The position numbers and the translations under genes are program-made. This document shows positions 10,849 through 34,762 of a stretch of 64,000 nt of DNA, in pieces (position 1 is the first letter of the stretch; the number at the start of each line of letters is the position of its first letter). The DNA comes from Luteibaculum oceani (GTDB taxonomy: Bacteria > Bacteroidota > Bacteroidia > Flavobacteriales_D > Luteibaculaceae), in the NCBI RefSeq assembly GCF_007995015.1, contig NZ_VORB01000006.1:62001-126000 (forward strand), written 5' to 3'. Below the pieces are notes generated by a model, which worked only from the letters and a program-made list of their open reading frames with translations, searched no databases and was not told where the DNA came from.

Positions 10849-11250
10849 CGCGTAAATAAAGCGAATTATTGTACTGGTGGATTTAGAATTTAACAGTGGG
10901 GTTTTAATAGCTCACTAAAAGAGCTAAACAGGTTTAAGACCCTGTTTTGTGGTTCACATTCTCGCGGTGGTCATACAGCGCTAAGTGGTCATTTATATTA
11001 CGAAGAAGTTTAAGAGTATTGAATTGCGTTAGTTCCAAATCCTTATGGAAATTCTTTACCAAGAGAGATTTTTTAGGAGAGAATAAGGGTTTGGTTTCTT
11101 TCTTGAGTCTTTAAATTGATGGTTTTTATCTAAAAGTTCAAAATATGACAATCCGCATATTAACTCGGATTACATGTCAGATAATTTCGATTAAAGAATT
11201 ATAGGGATTAGAATAGCGAGGTAATTCAAACCCAAATAATCCCATGGAAA
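10849..11250. other. Intergenic region upstream of cassette A1-B1
   Basis: This 400-base AT-rich stretch has no gene. A small hairpin AAACAGG / CCTGTTT lies at 10926-10947. A second ATG at 11244-11246, in a different frame from the A1 start, reads into the CT repeat and stops at 11131+200 (TAA at 11331-11333). No clear TTG/TAnnTTTG promoter was found. Confidence 0.5.
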
Positions 11251-14200
11251 ATGAAATTACCTTTTTTAAAATCAATTTTATACTTACTCTCTCTCTCTCT
11301 CTCTCTCTCTCTGCCAGTACTAGGGCAGAATAATCCGTCCTGCGACAATCAGGGGCTAGATAAAGCGATGTACGTAGACGATTTTATGCGGTTCATTGAG
11401 CCGAGTCAATTCAATTACACCCATGCAAATTATAACCTGTACAATGACTCTACGTCCATTGACTGGGTCGGATATAGAAAAAGGGCCGATTTTAACCGTA
11501 GTATTTTAGGAAACCCCCAAAAGGAGCATGCGCTTTTATGGTATGCTCAGAAAAATAAAATTAACTATCTAATTATGTTTGGTACCAGTTGGATATTCGA
11601 CCAGGGTACTTCAAAAGAAAATCACATTTATTCTGCTTATAGAGATTTGCTAGCCGAATTTACTTGTAAAGCATCCCAATTAGGAATTGAAGTGGGCCTT
11701 GCGCTAAATGAAAACTTTGATAACTACAGTTCTGACTTGAAGAGTAACCGGGAAGTTGAGAATGTACGTAGAGTTTCCAAACAAATGCTGGTTGAACAAT
11801 TAGATAACGACACGTTATGGGAAGGGTGGGAAGTGATAAGTCCCATAATCGATCGTTTTCCTAATGCTGAAATAACCATAAATCCAGTATTAAGTACAGT
11901 TATAGCCATACGCGATTTTAATAAAGAAATAGATTCCTATAGATCTAGAAATAACCAGAAATCTGGAGGTTGTTCTGGGCTCCTAAAGAATTTAGGAATC
12001 AAAGCCATTTGTACGGAATATGAATGGTGGTTACCGGATGGCCAGGAGTTACAAGACTTTCCAACGAAGCCACAGGAATTAATTGAGTACAACAGAACTG
12101 TGCTGGACAGTCTAGTATGGCGATTTGACAACAAATTTTTACCCTATTTAAGGGCTTTAAAAGTGTTTAAAGATACTGGAGAAATAGCTCGGGTTGAGTC
12201 TTACTTATCACCTTGGTGGTATCCTGGTTTGGAGGGAAACAATCAGGCTCCGTATGATCAGGAAGACTATTACCAGAAGTTTTATGAGATAGACGGGAAT
12301 CCCAACGATACAGCCGCATTGTATTACAAATTTGCCGCGCAAGCCAACCCTTTGTTAGACCGTTGGCATATCGCAGCATGGACTACAACCCCGTGGGATA
12401 TTGATGGAATGGAGGCATATCGCAAGATGGTGTCTATGATTAAAAGCCAGGTGGAGCATCCTTCTTACAATGGGGACAGCATCGATATTTTCCCGATTTT
12501 TTATACAGAATCCTCCAATTTTATTAAAGAAGAAGATTTCTATCCGAAGGAGGATGACCCTAATCATGTACCAGGTGATGGACAGTATAGTGATTACGTG
12601 GGCGATCTCTTAAGTAAAGGTAAAAATGCTAATGGCAAGAGTATCCAGGAAATACAAAGTGATTTTAAAGCTTCTTGGGATACGATTATTGGAGATGGAA
12701 ATAACATAAAACTTGGTGGTTTTAATTGGTTTATGTGGAGTATAATGCCACACATTATTTACAGTGATGACACTACCTCATCTGATACCCTAAAATTTAG
12801 AAAGAACCCACATTACGGGAACCGGGAATTGGTAGACTTATACATGCATTTTTTTCCTGACCCTGCAAAAGGGTTGCATACCCTAGAAATTTATAATAAT
12901 GCAAGAGCTCCTTTTGGTAACCAGAATAAATGGTTTCAAAATGGGCATGATTACCAATGGAGGTATGTTACACAATATTTAAAGAAGAACAGCCAAACGT
13001 GGGAATGGGATCCTAAAGATGTAATCAATAATCGTTCAAGATCGGCAAGGGTTCACACCTATGATCCAAGTGGATTAAATGGCGGTCCGATAGCCGTTAA
13101 GGATTCAATATATTATGTGCAAACTACAGATAACAATGGCTGTATAACTACATCAGCTCCAGTTCTGGTGAAATTCCAGAATAAAGAATTGTACATAAAA
13201 GATTATGAGCTGGATGATGGAAGTGAACCTTTACAAACACCGACGAACCAGAATAATTTAAGATTTTGGACAAGCATTTGGGTAAACCAAATTGAGGATG
13301 TTTCAAATGCGGGAGGGTTGGAGTCATCGCGCCCTATTCCAGGCGAAGATCATTGGGTGCACGTTAGGTTAACCAATAAAGGAAATGAACCCACTCGTGG
13401 AGGTGAAAAGTTGAGTGTATACTTCGCTAAAAAGAGTACGGACCAACCTTGGCCAAGGAATTGGATTTGGAATCCGGTTAGCGGGAAGTTTGTTGGTGAC
13501 AGGATAAATCATGCTCCCGTTTATATTCCTCCCATTTCAGCAAATACAGATACGGTAATAAGTATTTTATGGAAAGGTGGCCCAGATCCAGAGGTGTTTG
13601 ATGAGCCTATTGAGTTTTTAAGTGGTTTGTTCGGGGGGATTTCTTTCTCAGGACTACAGTATAAACTCCTGTCTCTGACGTACCATGATAACTTTGATTT
13701 TCTCGCGAGAATTGAGCGATCGGAAAACCCTCCTTATGGTATGGTAGCAGAAGAAAGCTCTAACATTATGGATAATGTTATTGCCAATAATGCAATTTCA
13801 CTCAATAAAACTTTGGATATAACCGTAAGTGGGAAGTTATTTTATTTTGGTTCAAACAAAGAATCTAAAGGAGAAAATCAAGATAACAGAGACTTAAGTC
13901 TGAGAAAAAATCAAGCGGAAGTAGATACCATTGGCAATGGTTCTTTGCACCGGTTTTTGGGATGGCAGACTACTAACTTAGAGGTGGCTAACTACCGAGG
14001 GAAGGCTAGTTTGCAGCTTAACTTTACACAAAGTGATTCTGGAACCCACTCATTAAATAATGATGGAGCCGTTATAATTAACCTTGGGCAAAATTTATTT
14101 ACTAAATGGGTGAATTCTGGAATGCAAGGAGCTGGGGTAGAAATATTTCCACTTAGTGGACATATTCCTTCCACTCAATTTGGTGCAGAAGAACCTGAGC

Positions 14201-15006
14201 ACCAAACAATAGATACCCTGCATACCACCATAAGGCTAACCGCAGCCAATGCTTGGGTAGGTGGCTTAAATATGAAACATGAAGAATTAAGAAATATTGA
14301 AATTGGCTTTCGCATGGACAGTGCTTTGGCCAAGGAAACCAATGAGGACGAATATTATAAATTTAAAATTCAGCAACGAGTAAACAGTCTGAGCCAACAA
14401 AACGAGTTGACCGGAGAGCAGGTTTATAATTTGCATTACCTTAAATGTGCAAAACCTGAAATTGTGAAGGTGCAAATTGGAGATATTGTCAATCTAACAG
14501 CACATACAGTAGGTGCTGAATTAGCAACAAGTTTTCAATGGGTGAAGAACGGGGAGGATATAGTTGGTGCGGTGTTACCTAATTTTAGACCAGATTTATC
14601 CCACCCTGGTAATTATAGTGTAAAGGTAAGGTACGATAACGGTTGCATTGCAGAGTCCGATGATATGGAGTTGAATTACAGCTCTAATCCATCACCAAGT
14701 TTATTAAATAGAGGAGGTGGAGCTGATGGGAAGGTGTTACATATTTCAGAGAAGAATTCTTTGGGAGTGTCCGCTTACCCCAACCCGATGAAAGAGTCGT
14801 TAGAAATCATTTTTAAAAAGCAAGTCTTTGGAATTTCAAAGTTGATGTTGTTTGATATGACGGGGAAACTGGTGGTAAAAAGAGATTTAAGTGAATCTAA
14901 TTTGTACAAGCATAAAATTGATGTGAGTTCACTTGAATCCGGCTTTTACACCCTAGTAATAGAGGGAGGCTCCGAGAAATACAGTAAAATATTAATAAAA
15001 GAGTAA
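11251..15006 (+). CDS. A1: large T9SS-exported protein, TIM-barrel-like N-domain, CARDB/Ig-like modules, sorting domain
   Basis: The 1251-residue product starts with a signal peptide whose core is five Leu-Ser pairs encoded by a CT microsatellite. An N-terminal region (about 30-530) holds MYVDDF, YLIMFGTSWIF, TEYEWW (residues 255-260) and a late W.MW.IMPH strand, a pattern that suggests a TIM-barrel glycoside-hydrolase-like fold. A CARDB-type domain follows (about 640-860, with WP.NWIWNPVSGKFVGDRI), then beta-rich and Ig-like segments (about 1080-1150). Residues about 1172-1251 are a type A T9SS sorting domain (YPNP, DMTGKLV, LESGFYTL, KILIKE). It is a paralogue of 29452-33150 and lies three bases before B1. 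Its substrate is unknown; I infer a secreted carbohydrate-active or binding protein. Confidence 0.85.
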   Translation: MKLPFLKSILYLLSLSLSLSLPVLGQNNPSCDNQGLDKAMYVDDFMRFIEPSQFNYTHANYNLYNDSTSIDWVGYRKRADFNRSILGNPQKEHALLWYAQKNKINYLIMFGTSWIFDQGTSKENHIYSAYRDLLAEFTCKASQLGIEVGLALNENFDNYSSDLKSNREVENVRRVSKQMLVEQLDNDTLWEGWEVISPIIDRFPNAEITINPVLSTVIAIRDFNKEIDSYRSRNNQKSGGCSGLLKNLGIKAICTEYEWWLPDGQELQDFPTKPQELIEYNRTVLDSLVWRFDNKFLPYLRALKVFKDTGEIARVESYLSPWWYPGLEGNNQAPYDQEDYYQKFYEIDGNPNDTAALYYKFAAQANPLLDRWHIAAWTTTPWDIDGMEAYRKMVSMIKSQVEHPSYNGDSIDIFPIFYTESSNFIKEEDFYPKEDDPNHVPGDGQYSDYVGDLLSKGKNANGKSIQEIQSDFKASWDTIIGDGNNIKLGGFNWFMWSIMPHIIYSDDTTSSDTLKFRKNPHYGNRELVDLYMHFFPDPAKGLHTLEIYNNARAPFGNQNKWFQNGHDYQWRYVTQYLKKNSQTWEWDPKDVINNRSRSARVHTYDPSGLNGGPIAVKDSIYYVQTTDNNGCITTSAPVLVKFQNKELYIKDYELDDGSEPLQTPTNQNNLRFWTSIWVNQIEDVSNAGGLESSRPIPGEDHWVHVRLTNKGNEPTRGGEKLSVYFAKKSTDQPWPRNWIWNPVSGKFVGDRINHAPVYIPPISANTDTVISILWKGGPDPEVFDEPIEFLSGLFGGISFSGLQYKLLSLTYHDNFDFLARIERSENPPYGMVAEESSNIMDNVIANNAISLNKTLDITVSGKLFYFGSNKESKGENQDNRDLSLRKNQAEVDTIGNGSLHRFLGWQTTNLEVANYRGKASLQLNFTQSDSGTHSLNNDGAVIINLGQNLFTKWVNSGMQGAGVEIFPLSGHIPSTQFGAEEPEHQTIDTLHTTIRLTAANAWVGGLNMKHEELRNIEIGFRMDSALAKETNEDEYYKFKIQQRVNSLSQQNELTGEQVYNLHYLKCAKPEIVKVQIGDIVNLTAHTVGAELATSFQWVKNGEDIVGAVLPNFRPDLSHPGNYSVKVRYDNGCIAESDDMELNYSSNPSPSLLNRGGGADGKVLHISEKNSLGVSAYPNPMKESLEIIFKKQVFGISKLMLFDMTGKLVVKRDLSESNLYKHKIDVSSLESGFYTLVIEGGSEKYSKILIKE
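11287..11312 (+). repeat. (CT)13 dinucleotide repeat inside the A1 signal-peptide codons
   Basis: Thirteen uninterrupted CT units encode alternating Leu and Ser. Gain or loss of one unit shifts the frame and meets a stop (TAG or TAA) within about 20 bases after the repeat, so slippage would switch A1 off. The paralogous A2 gene has no such repeat. Confidence 0.95.
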
Positions 15007-15009
15007 ATC

Positions 15010-16515
15010 ATGCAATCGTCTAAATACATAATCATAATAACTGTACTGTTATTGGCTAGTGATGTATTTTCTCAATTGCCAATACATAAGCAATGGGAAA
15101 ATATTTACGGTACAGCAGATATGGATAATCCTGATAAACTGTTTGATTTAGGAAATGGAAATTATGCAGCCAGTGGGTTTGTAAATGGAGGACAAAATCG
15201 AGAAGATTACGGCCATTGGTTTGGTTTTGATCAAACTGGTAACGAGATAATCTCAGGAGGTACTAATGTTACGATTGAAGACTTAGTTTTATCAGCAAAT
15301 AAAGAATATGTATTTGGTTACAGAGGTGTTTGCAGACAAAATTTTAAAAAAAACTTTAAGGATTTTAATCTTACCATTCTTGATTCCACAGGGGCAATTA
15401 AAACCAACTGTTTTGGAACCTATGGGGATGAATATCTAATGAGGTTTATGAACTTAAATTCCAATGGTTATTTGTTACTGGGAGATAAAGACAGTAATGA
15501 TCCAGATAGTTTATACTCCCAATCAAAAGGTTCGTATGATGCATGGTTTGTGAAAACGGATAATGAGGGGCTGTTGGAGTGGGAGATGTCGATTGGTGGG
15601 AGTAATTATGATGGGGTTGCATATGCTAATCAATTGGATGATTCAACGGTTATAGCGGCGATATATTCATATTCTAATGATTCAGACTTCGCATTTTTGG
15701 AGAACGAAAATGCTGAGAGATTTTTAGTTTTCGTAGAGATAAATGTTAATGGTAAAATCAAGTATTTAAGTCAACTGCTATTTACCGATCTGTCTCAACA
15801 AACTACAGTTTCAAGTAATTCGTTAATAATCGGTGATTATTTTTATCTAGCTGGTCCAGTGGGATTTGGAGCTGGGACAAATGGTGAGTTAATTAAAATT
15901 AATTACAAGGATGGTACCGTAGCATATAAGAAAACATACGGTGGTTCGGATTTTGACGGTTTTTTCAATATTTATGGTAGAGAAAATGGGAATTTAGTTC
16001 TCGGGGGAAAAAGCAAGTCAACCGATGGGGATTTGCAAGGTAAAAATAGTCCATTTAATACCTGGATTATGGAGGTGGATACCGCAGGAAATATTGTTGA
16101 TCAGATTTTCCCTCTGGGTAGGGGTACAGCTGGTTCCTTTTATGATTTTCTACTTACGGATGAGGAGGAAATAATAGTTTTATCTGCTAATGGTTCCAAA
16201 GAAAATTTCCCAGAACACTATGGTCCATTTGATCATGAAATTCCAACAGATTTTTACATTTATAAATTAGGTTACAACCCAGTTAGTTCCATATCGGATA
16301 AGGAAGGTTTTCAAGGTTCTTCCGCCTACCCCAACCCCAACAATACGGGTATTTTAAATACCAATCTTAAAGCCAATTATTCTTTGCTAGATATCCAAGG
16401 ACGTACCCTTAAATCTTTTGTTCAAAGCGATGCTTTAGATATTTCGGATGTGCAAAGCGGTACCTATTTACTAAAATACGAAAGTGGAGCAACGGTTAGG
16501 ATTGTTGTTGAGTAG
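15010..16515 (+). CDS. B1: T9SS-exported beta-propeller-like protein
   Basis: The 501-residue product has a signal peptide (about 1-21, ending DVFSQ). It then carries repeated blade-like units, with motifs such as WFVKTDNEGLLEWE, IGGSNYDG and TWIMEVDTAGNIV, resembling the 'delta-60'/SBBP-type propellers of Bacteroidota. It ends in a short type A sorting domain (YPNPNN, LLDIQGR, DVQSGTYLL). It starts three bases after A1 and is paralogous to B2 at 33152 (both begin with an EW/WEN(K)IYG motif after the signal). The consistent pairing suggests that A and B act together at the surface. Function unknown. Confidence 0.85.
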   Translation: MQSSKYIIIITVLLLASDVFSQLPIHKQWENIYGTADMDNPDKLFDLGNGNYAASGFVNGGQNREDYGHWFGFDQTGNEIISGGTNVTIEDLVLSANKEYVFGYRGVCRQNFKKNFKDFNLTILDSTGAIKTNCFGTYGDEYLMRFMNLNSNGYLLLGDKDSNDPDSLYSQSKGSYDAWFVKTDNEGLLEWEMSIGGSNYDGVAYANQLDDSTVIAAIYSYSNDSDFAFLENENAERFLVFVEINVNGKIKYLSQLLFTDLSQQTTVSSNSLIIGDYFYLAGPVGFGAGTNGELIKINYKDGTVAYKKTYGGSDFDGFFNIYGRENGNLVLGGKSKSTDGDLQGKNSPFNTWIMEVDTAGNIVDQIFPLGRGTAGSFYDFLLTDEEEIIVLSANGSKENFPEHYGPFDHEIPTDFYIYKLGYNPVSSISDKEGFQGSSAYPNPNNTGILNTNLKANYSLLDIQGRTLKSFVQSDALDISDVQSGTYLLKYESGATVRIVVE

Positions 16516-29451: not shown

Positions 29452-32400
29452 ATGTTACTAAAAGACTACTTTAAGTTTTCCCTTATTCTAATTTTTCTTT
29501 TTCAAATTGACCTTTCTAAGGCTCAAACTAATTGGCTTTGCTCCCCACCAAGCGGTGAGGATCGTGGAATGTATGTTAATGACTTCATCCACAATATGCG
29601 TTACAGTTATGGGTTTACAAATAACGGATCGCAATCACCAAGTACAGTAATCTTCCACAACGAAGATAGGGCAGACTTCGACCTTTCTATTTTAGGTAAT
29701 CCCGATAAGGAAAATGCCTTGCTCTTTTATGCTGAAAAAAATCAGATTGATTATCTAATCCTATATAACACATCTGGAATTTTCAGATACGAAAATTCTC
29801 ATCTGCTATCCAAGTATGAGGATTTACTCGCAGATTTTATTCAAAGAGCTGGGCCTGATATAAGGGTAGGTCTTTCATTTGGACCTGAATTCACTGAATT
29901 TGAGGGAGGAAATTACGATGAAGCACCCTCAGATGGTTTTTCCCAGGGTGGTGGAACTCCTCCGGGGCCACCAATACCAGAACCACCTATCTCTGGTGAC
30001 CCTGAGAATCCTACCGAAGAGCCGGCAATAAATCTAAACGAATTAGAGAGTGGTAATACAAGAGTTTCAAAGGTAGAGATTATTGAGGCATTGGGAGGTG
30101 ACACATTATTTGATGGTTGGCCAATTCTGCAAGATATAATGACCAATACACCCGATGCAGAACTCACCATAAATCATGAAATTTATGCCTTATCTCGCAT
30201 GTATTCATGGGTGAAACATGCCCGTGATAATGTTGTAAACGATGATGTAAAAGTTCCTTCCGAAGCAACAACGGGCGGGGATGATGATGAGGAAAACCCA
30301 CTACCCGGTGGCAACTACAGAAAAAGTTTTAGTGTCCCTTTTTTAGTTACAGAGTACGAATGGTGGCACATTGATCCGAATAATGGAGTTGATTATTCTA
30401 ACAGGGAAAAAAAACGACAAGATGAGGTTTTTAAAAACGGTTTTGTAGATAAAATAGGACGGAAAAGAGCAAGTTTCAAATCAATTTTACAGGCAATGTA
30501 TGCCTTCAGAACGGGAGACAATAGCATAGTTGACCAAATTTATGTTTATCAGGGATATTTCCCGAAAGATGTAAATGATGTTCTTAACGATAGTGCTGGA
30601 TATCCTCCTCTTTATTTTGATTGGGCGGGGGATATTATCAATTGGTCAGATAGAGTTCTAGCTGTTAATTATACTAACGATCCTAGTAAAATAGGATTTG
30701 ATGAGCCATATCTTATTCTTCATGAGTTATTCGCCAAACAATCAAAAGTAATACGTAAAAAATATGACTTTACGAACTTGCTTTCAGCACAAAATGGACA
30801 TTTTTATGACCATAAAAGAGAAACAAATTATGCCCCTGCCGAAGGGATAGGTACTTTTCTTAGCAGAAAATACTCAATAGCGAGGGTTGAAGGATTAGCA
30901 AGATACGCTTGGGATAGTCTTAAGACTGAAAATCGCTTTAGCGATGATTATGATGCTAATTACTTTAAATACAAAGGTTCAGCGTGGTTCTCTTATCAAA
31001 TTATGCCCTATCCATTCTACAAAAGAGGCAATACTAAGTCTGATAATCGAATTCAAAAAGGGGGTACGAAATCTATAGTGGATTTATTCCATAATTATTA
31101 TACCAATAATTCTACGGCAATAGATTTTGAGGTGTATTATGTTGACGATGGAGTGGATGAGGCCCTAGCGAACACGGACTCCAGAAAATTTGATATTTAT
31201 TCTACTCGAGATTTTGATATTGATACAACAAAAATGATGAGCTTCAGCAATAAGCGGTTCTCCCTACCACCTGATAATAAATACTACTATCTTGAACACG
31301 AGGACGATAATAGTTGTAAATTCACTTCAGTTCCTGTTGGGGTGTTTAAATATAATAACGACTTATACATTCGGGATTTTGAAAAGGGAGATTCTGGAGG
31401 TGAAAACCAACCAAGATCTAAGCAGGGAGTATGGAAAAGTCCCGATATAAGCATTACCAATACTACCTTTACTTCAAACAATGTTGAACGTGAGGGGTAT
31501 GGTCCCACGGGTAGAAATAAGGTAAGAGTTACTATCCATAACAAAAAAGGTGGACAGGATTATTACTACAAAGAGAATACATACCGCTTAGATTTATTTT
31601 GGACTTTATTCACTCCTGGTTCTCCTTGGCCTTTGCAGTGGATAAACAATAGAAGACCATCCGATGGGAAAATTGTGGGTGATAGAATAAATATTACACC
31701 TATTTATTTAAACAAAGATATACCCGCTGGTCGCAGTGAAACCTTTGTTTATGAGTGGGATCCTTCAGAATTCGGAATTGATCCAACAATTGATCCCGAT
31801 CCGCATATATGTATAACCGCAAGGCTAGTAAGGTCAGAAAATCCCTCTAATTCCTATGGGATGACTTATCAAGAGCAGGATCAATATGATGAAAATGCGT
31901 TTAATAATAATTCCTACGCGTATAAAAATGTTCGTTTTATCAACAATGGTTCCGTTTCTGGAACTGCTTCATCCAATGGTAACCTAATAAACGACGATTT
32001 TCAATATGACGCAGGTAATGAAATAGAAATACCAGATTTTACGTCCTCGAATTTAAGGTCTAGTGGAAGAATTTATTTTTCCAATACCAAAGCGGATACT
32101 TCTTTTCACAGATTAGATTTTAACCTTCAAAGCAACTCTAATGGAAAAACTATTCTAGATTATGGAAGGGTTTTTATGGAACTCAATGGGTCAATTTATG
32201 ATAAGTGGAAACAAGGAAATATGCGGTCCTCCGGCATCCAACAAATTGGTGGCATCCCAGATATATCAGAGAGATTAAGGCTTTTAGAAATTACTAATAA
32301 TGCAGGGTTCCTGGATAGTATGTTGTTTTTTCCTTTTGAATTCGAAAATTTTAGATTATTGTTTTTGTCCGATACCCTTGAATTTGGTTTGGATACGGTA

Positions 32401-33150
32401 GAGGTTCAGTTTAAACAATCTTCCGCAATGGCTGGTACGACGTTATCAAGTATGGGCGGGGCTTCTGTACTATTTACAACTGCTAACTGCCCTGCTCCCA
32501 AACTTGATTATGCTTTAGTAAACTCGGATGGTGTAATTACCATTTCAAATAGCGGTGAATTCTCAAATGCTAGCTTTACTTGGTATTCTGGTGACTCACT
32601 ATTGACTAATGATAGTTTGTCTTATTTAATTCCACATGATTCTGGTTCCTTTTTTGTGGAGGCAAGCTTTACCCATGGTTGCATTTCTAGATCTGATACC
32701 ATAACCATTCTTGAAGAGGAGCCTGGTTCGATTGTAATTGACAGAAATAGTGGTGCACCAACAAAATTTCTGGCAGATATGGGCTCAGAATCAGAAGTTG
32801 AGGATGGCATCGAAAAGACAGAAATTTATAGAGATAACTTTCTTGATTCAAGTTCATTAAGAAATCAACCTGAAGAAGATAAAGGAGAGTTGTATTTTTC
32901 TGTTTTCCCTAATCCTGTATCTGATGTTATAAGGGTTGTAGTTTCTGGAACGAGATTAAATGAAGATTTTACTGTAAATATATTTGATGTAAATGGTAAG
33001 TTGGTGATGACCAAACATGTTAACGAGACAAAGGTTGGTGATAAAACTGTTACAAATATGGATGTATCCAATATGGAACCATCTTCGTATTTAATTAAGG
33101 TGGTAACCGAACAAGGACAGATTAAGTCCATGCCTATAATCAAAAAATAA
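29452..33150 (+). CDS. A2: large T9SS-exported protein, paralogue of A1
   Basis: The 1232-residue product has an ordinary signal peptide (LILIFLFQIDLSKAQ) and follows A1 block by block: GMYVNDFI, SILGNPDKENALLFYAEKN, YLILYNTSGIF, TEYEWW (residues 300-305), a W..YQIMPYPFY strand, a CARDB-type domain (WPLQWINN, GKIVGDRIN) and a type A sorting domain (FPNPVSD, FDVNGKLV, MEPSSYLI). It differs by a Pro-rich insertion (about 165-190, GTPPGPPIPEPP) in the N-domain and lacks the CT repeat. It stops one base before B2. Glycoside-hydrolase-like fold is inference from the motif pattern; substrate unknown. Confidence 0.85.
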   Translation: MLLKDYFKFSLILIFLFQIDLSKAQTNWLCSPPSGEDRGMYVNDFIHNMRYSYGFTNNGSQSPSTVIFHNEDRADFDLSILGNPDKENALLFYAEKNQIDYLILYNTSGIFRYENSHLLSKYEDLLADFIQRAGPDIRVGLSFGPEFTEFEGGNYDEAPSDGFSQGGGTPPGPPIPEPPISGDPENPTEEPAINLNELESGNTRVSKVEIIEALGGDTLFDGWPILQDIMTNTPDAELTINHEIYALSRMYSWVKHARDNVVNDDVKVPSEATTGGDDDEENPLPGGNYRKSFSVPFLVTEYEWWHIDPNNGVDYSNREKKRQDEVFKNGFVDKIGRKRASFKSILQAMYAFRTGDNSIVDQIYVYQGYFPKDVNDVLNDSAGYPPLYFDWAGDIINWSDRVLAVNYTNDPSKIGFDEPYLILHELFAKQSKVIRKKYDFTNLLSAQNGHFYDHKRETNYAPAEGIGTFLSRKYSIARVEGLARYAWDSLKTENRFSDDYDANYFKYKGSAWFSYQIMPYPFYKRGNTKSDNRIQKGGTKSIVDLFHNYYTNNSTAIDFEVYYVDDGVDEALANTDSRKFDIYSTRDFDIDTTKMMSFSNKRFSLPPDNKYYYLEHEDDNSCKFTSVPVGVFKYNNDLYIRDFEKGDSGGENQPRSKQGVWKSPDISITNTTFTSNNVEREGYGPTGRNKVRVTIHNKKGGQDYYYKENTYRLDLFWTLFTPGSPWPLQWINNRRPSDGKIVGDRINITPIYLNKDIPAGRSETFVYEWDPSEFGIDPTIDPDPHICITARLVRSENPSNSYGMTYQEQDQYDENAFNNNSYAYKNVRFINNGSVSGTASSNGNLINDDFQYDAGNEIEIPDFTSSNLRSSGRIYFSNTKADTSFHRLDFNLQSNSNGKTILDYGRVFMELNGSIYDKWKQGNMRSSGIQQIGGIPDISERLRLLEITNNAGFLDSMLFFPFEFENFRLLFLSDTLEFGLDTVEVQFKQSSAMAGTTLSSMGGASVLFTTANCPAPKLDYALVNSDGVITISNSGEFSNASFTWYSGDSLLTNDSLSYLIPHDSGSFFVEASFTHGCISRSDTITILEEEPGSIVIDRNSGAPTKFLADMGSESEVEDGIEKTEIYRDNFLDSSSLRNQPEEDKGELYFSVFPNPVSDVIRVVVSGTRLNEDFTVNIFDVNGKLVMTKHVNETKVGDKTVTNMDVSNMEPSSYLIKVVTEQGQIKSMPIIKK

Positions 33151-33151
33151 A

Positions 33152-34762
33152 ATGTCTAGACGATTATTTCTTAGTATTCTGATATTTATGTCTTGGGTAT
33201 TTACAGCAAATGCCCAACAGGATACGCTTTTTGAGGAGTGGAATAAAATTTACGGCTCCCATGAAGAGGAAGTGCCTGTAAACATGATTCAGTTGGATGA
33301 AAATCGCATTTTAATTTATGGGCAAATAGCGGATCCGCCGCCCCAAGGTTATATCCGAGATAGTTACTTTCTTGAAGTAGATACCAATGGGTCTATCTTA
33401 AATGAAAAAGTTGTTGATTTTGGTGGCGATGAGGTACTAAGAATGAAAGTTTTAAGTAACGGAGACCTGTTGTTATTTGGATCCTGTTCTTATTGCTATT
33501 CTGAAACCCATGAAATAGGTGGAATTGAAGGGCAACAACTCTATTATGACGTATTTGTAGCGCGCTTAGATAGGGATTTAAATGTTTTGTGGAATCGATG
33601 TTTGGGTAGTAGTGGCGATGATCAGATGTTAACGGTATATGAATTGCCTAATGGTCACATAAAAGTTTATGCCGAGCAAGATTCTAGATTTTTAGATGGT
33701 GAACCACAGAATTCCTATTATTTATATGGTAGAAAACCCTGGGTATTTGAACTGGATCTTAATGGAATAATGACAAAAAATGAGAGTTGGGATGACACAA
33801 CTAGATATAAATATTCCAGTGTAAGTACGATAAAGGAAAAACCAAATGGTAATGGTCATATTGTAGTTTTAGAGCAAACATTAAAGGAATCAATTGAGAC
33901 TCAGGTCTCACAGGAGTTATTGGTTTTAAGCTTTAATGAAAAAGGAGAGGCTACTGATAGTTCTTTAATCGAGCTGTCGAAAAGAAATACCTTTAATATG
34001 TCCTTTTATCATTATTTTCTAAAAAACGATAGTATATTACTCGTTGATGGAAGTTTTGAACCCTGGGACGGATCAGGATATGAACCTGAAAATTATAATG
34101 GTGGTTGGCTAGATTTGGTTTGGGCCAGAATAAATCTGAAATCCCAAATTATAGAGAGGTTGGTATTCATTGGAGATTCCACTGATGGATTTCCGCATGC
34201 ATCGGACGGCGGGTCTACTTGTAGTCGATTTAATGAAAATACCTATACTAGTTATTTTTATGGTATAAAAAGGGAATACCCTTTGTTTAATCTAACAGTA
34301 TCCGATGATCAACAATTAAAAGTGGAATTTGACCATCAGGGGAATATTTTAAACATGGAGGCTTTAGATGATCTTCCTTTTTGTAACCGTGAAAATAATT
34401 TTGTGAAAATTTCGTCCACCAGCTATTTTGAATTACATGCAGGTTACGATATTGAAAAAAGTGATTTTTATTTCCCCGGTTCTCGAGAAAAACCACCAAG
34501 TATCTTTATTCGCAAATGGAGTAAGCTAGCACAGGGGTCTACTTTTGCTAATTCTGAAGATCCAATAATAATATTCCCAAACCCTAGTGAAAGCGATATA
34601 ATAAACCTAAACGGTAAATCAGATTTTGAGCTTTTTCAGTCTGATGGAAAATTGTTAGGTCGTTACAAGGCAAAAAACCAACTTAATATTTCTGGTCTTA
34701 GTGATGGGGTTTACCTTATTCGTCGCAGCGATGGAAAAGTAGCTCGTTTTATTAAAGAGTGA
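33152..34762 (+). CDS. B2: T9SS-exported beta-propeller-like protein, paralogue of B1
   Basis: The 536-residue product has a signal peptide ending TANAQQ, then WNKIYGSHEEE and repeated blade motifs (YFLEVDTNGSILNE, FVARLDRDLNVLWNR, PWVFELDLNGIM). It ends in a short type A sorting domain (FPNPSES, LFQSDGKLL, LSDGVYLIR). Like B1 it directly follows its A partner. Cys residues at about 110-115 (SCSYC) are not shared with B1. Function unknown; co-occurrence with A suggests a surface complex or a shared substrate. Confidence 0.85.
   Translation: MSRRLFLSILIFMSWVFTANAQQDTLFEEWNKIYGSHEEEVPVNMIQLDENRILIYGQIADPPPQGYIRDSYFLEVDTNGSILNEKVVDFGGDEVLRMKVLSNGDLLLFGSCSYCYSETHEIGGIEGQQLYYDVFVARLDRDLNVLWNRCLGSSGDDQMLTVYELPNGHIKVYAEQDSRFLDGEPQNSYYLYGRKPWVFELDLNGIMTKNESWDDTTRYKYSSVSTIKEKPNGNGHIVVLEQTLKESIETQVSQELLVLSFNEKGEATDSSLIELSKRNTFNMSFYHYFLKNDSILLVDGSFEPWDGSGYEPENYNGGWLDLVWARINLKSQIIERLVFIGDSTDGFPHASDGGSTCSRFNENTYTSYFYGIKREYPLFNLTVSDDQQLKVEFDHQGNILNMEALDDLPFCNRENNFVKISSTSYFELHAGYDIEKSDFYFPGSREKPPSIFIRKWSKLAQGSTFANSEDPIIIFPNPSESDIINLNGKSDFELFQSDGKLLGRYKAKNQLNISGLSDGVYLIRRSDGKVARFIKE

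Follow-up and report, generated by a model that had tools for sequence, protein, structure and literature searches.

Slippage switches of gene expression are known mostly from pathogens. In Neisseria, the opa genes, a many-locus family, carry a CTCTT pentamer in the signal peptide, and in Haemophilus influenzae the genes of the lic1A type contain tetranucleotide simple sequence repeats (SSRs) that act by translational slippage, with the alternative starts of lic giving graded levels of product. Here we describe a candidate switch in Luteibaculum oceani, in a stretch of 64,000 nucleotides (contig NZ_VORB01000006.1, positions 62,001 to 126,000 of the forward strand), referred to below as the window. 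The gene concerned, A1, encodes a cargo protein of the type IX secretion system (T9SS), and thirteen CT units stand in the part of it that encodes the signal peptide. A1 resembles opa in having a repeat in the signal-peptide core that would switch the translation frame, and differs from it in that opa has a five-base unit, many loci and an unrelated product. With the lic1A-type genes it would share the translational slippage switch, whereas these genes have tetranucleotide units, encode lipopolysaccharide enzymes and do not carry the repeat in a signal peptide. The dinucleotide case of H. influenzae acts in the hif promoter (SSR overview, PMC2651432).

Haemophilus and Neisseria were the precedents named in a preliminary description of the window; a much closer one is provided by the CT repeat of the Helicobacter pylori genes oipA/hopH, hopZ and babA. 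In these genes CT repeats at the 5' end switch expression, the oipA repeat lies in the signal peptide, and 8, 9 and 11 CT units occur in natural ON and OFF sequences of OipA (PMC10564699, PMC3960876). As predicted for A1, the gain or loss of a CT unit shifts the frame of oipA, hopZ and babA and leads to an early stop (PMC10564699, PMC3960876). By contrast with the Hop genes, A1 belongs to a different phylum and encodes an unrelated protein, with a C-terminal T9SS tail in the place of the Hop outer-membrane barrel; furthermore, an upstream ATG could open a second of its three frames, and MutS and MutL are present in its genome. An identification of A1 as a Hop adhesin (OipA, HopZ, BabA) was rejected, as there is no homology and searches of Pfam and NCBIfam give the T9SS tail only; the mechanism is alike, the protein is not.

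What is known of phase variation in Bacteroidota concerns for the most part DNA inversions; passages on Bacteroides in a 2025 review deal with invertases and with an older shift that depends on temperature, and not with slippage (PMC11868660). The slippage mechanism itself is already known from Helicobacter, and what is new is the setting, a T9SS cargo in an environmental member of the Bacteroidota. The literature searched, which covered few subscription journals, yielded no paper that connects T9SS cargo with phase variation by slippage. If true, a switch of this type on such a cargo, together with similar loci in several phyla, would bring a major secretion system within the reach of the mechanism.

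The (CT)13 tract and the reading frames of A1

The features of the locus, in window positions, are the following.

11251 to 15006, plus strand: A1, T9SS cargo gene; open reading frame (ORF) from the ATG, 1,251 amino acids, with a signal peptide, an N-terminal region without a known family and a C-terminal T9SS type A sorting domain
11251 to 11325, plus strand: predicted signal peptide, MKLPFLKSILYLLSLSLSLSLPVLG, 25 amino acids; cleavage before Q26, the site inferred from the pattern VLG followed by Q
11287 to 11312, plus strand: (CT)13 tract; codons 13 to 20 of A1 and the first two bases (CT) of codon 21, encoding the hydrophobic core of the signal peptide
11244 to 11246, plus strand: alternative ATG, which shares the A1 frame at 8, 11, 14 and 17 units
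11321 to 11323, plus strand: TAG reached from ATG 11251 on gain of one CT unit
11331 to 11333, plus strand: TAA reached from ATG 11251 on loss of one CT unit

The tract reads CTC TCT four times, which gives (Leu-Ser)4, and continues as CTG CCA GTA CTA GGG CAG, in agreement with the preliminary description, which had assigned the Leu-Ser core of the signal peptide to thirteen CT units. The signal peptide was called by inspection and hydropathy, not by SignalP; the maximal Kyte-Doolittle value over 10 residues is 1.98, and a charge of +2 precedes the core. A glutamine directly after the predicted cleavage site is also found in A2, B1 and B2, which are considered further below.

A run of this kind is exceptional in the genome. 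A genome-wide pattern search of the 2.92 Mb returned the A1 tract as the sole CT/TC run of at least 11 bases, and AC, AT or GC runs of 9 units are absent from the whole genome. Under a first-order Markov model of the window, the expected count of (CT)13 is approximately 3e-12 per 64 kb and 1.5e-10 per genome. CTC is the rarest leucine codon (4% of leucine codons), and the probability that all of four Leu-Ser pairs are encoded as CTC-TCT is approximately 2e-8. Because of this codon choice, a preference for Leu-Ser in the protein does not explain the tract, which is a feature of the DNA. The locus has three properties of SSR phase-variable genes: a perfect short tandem repeat in the 5' coding region, a unit that is not a multiple of three, so that a change of one unit leads to an early stop, and a tract longer than chance and coding constraint predict.

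From ATG 11251 the A1 frame is open at 7, 10, 13, 16 and 19 units. With 12 units the translation from this start would run to LSASTRAE and end at the TAA, and with 14 units it would run to LSLCQY and end at the TAG. An early stop in both directions had been proposed earlier and stands, with the two stops exchanged: loss had been assigned to TAG and gain to TAA. The proposal that ATG 11244 joins the A1 frame on gain of one unit holds at 14 units, and the N-terminus is then different. The product from this start begins MENEITFFKINFILTLSLSLSLSLPVLGQ; the 14-unit product begins MENEIT, with a net charge of -1 before the core, and its export may be weaker. The start context of ATG 11251 lies at the 97th percentile among all ATGs of the window and that of ATG 11244 at the 85th. 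The three phases of the tract comprise one that is open from ATG 11251, another that is open from ATG 11244 and a third in which neither start gives an open frame.

The assignment of A1 to the T9SS type A cargo proteins is based on its sorting domain, the predicted N-terminal Sec signal peptide and a genome rich in T9SS tails. The C-terminus matches PF18962 of Pfam with 49.2 bits (cut-off 27; E 6e-13) and TIGR04183 of NCBIfam with 40.2 bits (cut-off 23). Outside the sorting domain A1 has no further known domain in Pfam, and the NCBIfam matches are confined to the tail. The genome has 95 sorting-domain matches, approximately 91 of them over the cut-off; use of the T9SS is judged from these cargo tails.

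Signal-peptide CT runs in other genomes

Were CT runs in signal peptides to act as switches, the same layout would be expected in other genomes, often in the OFF state with the downstream frame intact. The comparison genomes are mostly metagenome-assembled genomes (MAGs), and signal peptides were called throughout with a home-made signal-peptide plus ORF rule, not with SignalP. Within the order, CT runs of at least 10 units occur in 14 of 399 genomes, the window's own genome included. After removal of duplicates, 5 of the 16 tracts outside the window lie in signal-peptide starts, all of them in one family (f4). Four of these five would need a change of a single unit to join their open frames, which have lengths of 163, 961, 1,313 and at least 1,421 amino acids. 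Outside this family, many of the runs lie between genes or in no signal peptide, and these were excluded from the support.

A species-wide scan with the pattern ATGAAA, 6 to 36 bases and a CT run, which is a sample and not a census, gave at least 80 loci and at least 82 to 83 distinct tracts. Among the matches listed, 29 to 30 of the 82 to 83 tracts pass the signal-peptide plus ORF test; 5 of these are in frame and 24 to 25 one unit off, +1 and -1 equally. They come from Saprospiraceae, Alistipes, Aequorivita, Verrucomicrobia, Kiritimatiellae and Spirochaetia, among others, and include one MAG with four pilin-like leaders. In a control on reversed sequences none of 99 passes the same test, and 395 genomes of the class contain at least 11 distinct tracts preceded by ATGAA, as opposed to 2 for the reversed pattern.

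Pooling of both surveys yields, among the matches listed, approximately 35 other CT runs of at least 10 units in signal-peptide or pilin-leader starts, of which 6 are in frame (p 0.048 against one third) and the others are one unit from an intact frame, the longest of approximately 1,400 amino acids. This excess of off-frame tracts with intact downstream ORFs is as expected of contingency loci caught in the OFF state. Five of the surveyed proteins carry a T9SS tail, four of them (L051, L054, L139 and L122) at or above the NCBI cut-off and L082 exactly at it. The surveyed loci (L051, L053, L054, L056, L057, L082, L122, L139 and others, in uncultured Bacteroidota and other groups) share with A1 the architecture and the CT unit, and differ from it in their unrelated cargo proteins and in being mostly out of frame; their origins are probably independent.

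Some genomes contain several such runs. In the uncultured MAG with loci L079 and L145 (CAIUKF010000012.1 and CAIUKF010000010.1), four CT runs of 11 to 17 units each lie in a type IV pilin-like leader (GFTIVELLVVIVVIGILAAI) and stand in different phases, so that the genes resemble a set of phase-variable pilins. L200 and L203 of G697 (L094, JAGPDT010000024.1) encode two secreted proteins that are similar to each other, one of them with DUF7948; their signal-peptide CT runs, one of 10 units and one of 21, are each off frame by a single unit. Another genome, G029, has two such loci.

The proposed switch and competing explanations

From the sequence and by analogy with the systems described above, we consider A1 to be probably (about 0.7) a contingency gene, with a slipped-strand on/off switch in the signal peptide of a T9SS protein. 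Slipped-strand mispairing at (CT)13 during replication would add or remove a unit and shift the frame within the signal peptide, and the shift would switch the production and export of a surface or secreted protein. With 13 units the strong start at ATG 11251 would be used and the gene would be ON; with 12 or 15 units translation from both starts would meet a stop and the gene would be OFF; with 14 units translation from ATG 11244 would read through, and the negatively charged n-region could result in weak or no export. Since frame-keeping CTC-TCT repeats of any length encode a hydrophobic Leu-Ser core, the Sec signal would tolerate variation in tract length. The phase-variation switch put forward in the preliminary description is strengthened by the recurrence of the layout in dozens of unrelated secreted-protein genes, T9SS cargo included, and for A1 itself it is still inferred.

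Several observations weigh against this interpretation. Neither 119 relatives from the order nor the species-wide scan yielded an orthologue of A1. Among the approximately 90 T9SS-tail genes of the genome, A1 alone has a CT run. The genome encodes an intact-looking MutS and MutL; because these normally repair two-base slippage loops, switching could be slow or modest in rate, and their presence argues against a very high rate. Finally, misassembly of tract lengths in MAGs could account for part of the off-frame excess.

A competing explanation is a neutral expansion, in which the tract drifted to 13 units in a tolerant Leu-Ser core and still changes occasionally, off-frame variants are deleterious and there is no adaptive switching. 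Signal-peptide cores accept Leu-Ser at any length, the genome has a single locus and the two repair proteins, and no orthologue was found that would show retention of the tract. However, long intact ORFs behind off-frame tracts in many genomes indicate that these genomes tolerate the OFF state and retain the gene, several such loci occur in one genome (L145 and L079 in a single MAG, two paralogues in G697, two in G029), and runs of such length are otherwise absent from the genome of A1. Neutral expansion is the less likely account, at odds of perhaps one in five. Much less probable is a tuning of export efficiency without on/off switching, by changes of three units, or two residues, that resize the hydrophobic core: the openness of A1 from ATG 11251 at 7, 10, 16 and 19 units would permit it, whereas the commonest slippage event is a change of a single unit, which in every case shifts the frame, and the other loci are mostly off-frame. 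We regard it as equally improbable that the tract length is an assembly or sequencing error and that the gene, with another true count, is constitutively ON with a different N-terminus, or OFF. The assembly is a draft of 42 contigs and short reads can miscount dinucleotide runs; yet the assembled length exactly opens a frame of 1,251 amino acids from the ATG whose start context is the better of the two, and a long CT run would remain at any nearby length.

Beyond the on/off switch in A1, a broader reading is tentative and somewhat more doubtful than not: among uncultured bacteria of the environment, signal-peptide CT cores could be a convergent, widely used and largely unrecognized contingency device of secreted proteins, T9SS cargo and pilins, of which A1, with its two staggered ATGs, would be a three-state variant (strong, weak or with altered N-terminus, and off).

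Paralogues, neighbouring genes and other repeats

Further features of the window are listed here.

11133 to 11243, plus strand: 5' leader of 111 bases, 94% common to a second A-B cassette at G000:C9:69326-71554; the homology ends exactly at ATG 11244
15010 to 16515, plus strand: B1, second T9SS cargo, 501 amino acids, with the sorting tail; separated from the stop of A1 by 3 bases
29452 to 33150, plus strand: A2, repeat-free paralogue of A1, 24% identical to it (BLASTP)

A1 and B1 are probably co-transcribed, and an OFF frame in A1 could therefore be polar on B1. A promoter scan returned 16 matches, against 19.7 in shuffled sequences. AlphaFold modelling of the N-terminal region of A1 with A2 and A3 gave a mean pLDDT (predicted local distance difference test) of 33.7.

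The ordinary signal sequence attributed earlier to A2 was confirmed, and its signal peptide (MLLKDYFKFSLILIFLFQIDLSKAQ) contains no repeats; a third paralogue, A3 (L016:8716-11439), likewise has an ordinary signal peptide and no repeat. The A2-B2 cassette (window 29452-34762), a partner that has diverged from A1-B1, agrees with it in gene order and likewise has T9SS tails. The C9 cassette (G000:C9:69326-71554, equal to L015:9327-11555) retains the leader and the C-terminus of A, together with an intact B copy of 508 amino acids. The part from ATG 11244 to 14488, in window equivalents, is deleted, and for this reason the copy is uninformative on variation of the tract. At its junction a stretch of approximately 250 bases matches A1 at 100%, and beyond it the identity falls to approximately 85%, a pattern that suggests a recent exchange (gene conversion) between the A1 locus and the C9 cassette.

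Among mononucleotide repeats, a few G runs of 9 to 10 bases are found in the genome. At G000:C5:12175-12184 (L219, minus strand), 10 G stand at codon 126 of an open frame of 166 amino acids, a possible C-terminal slippage site.
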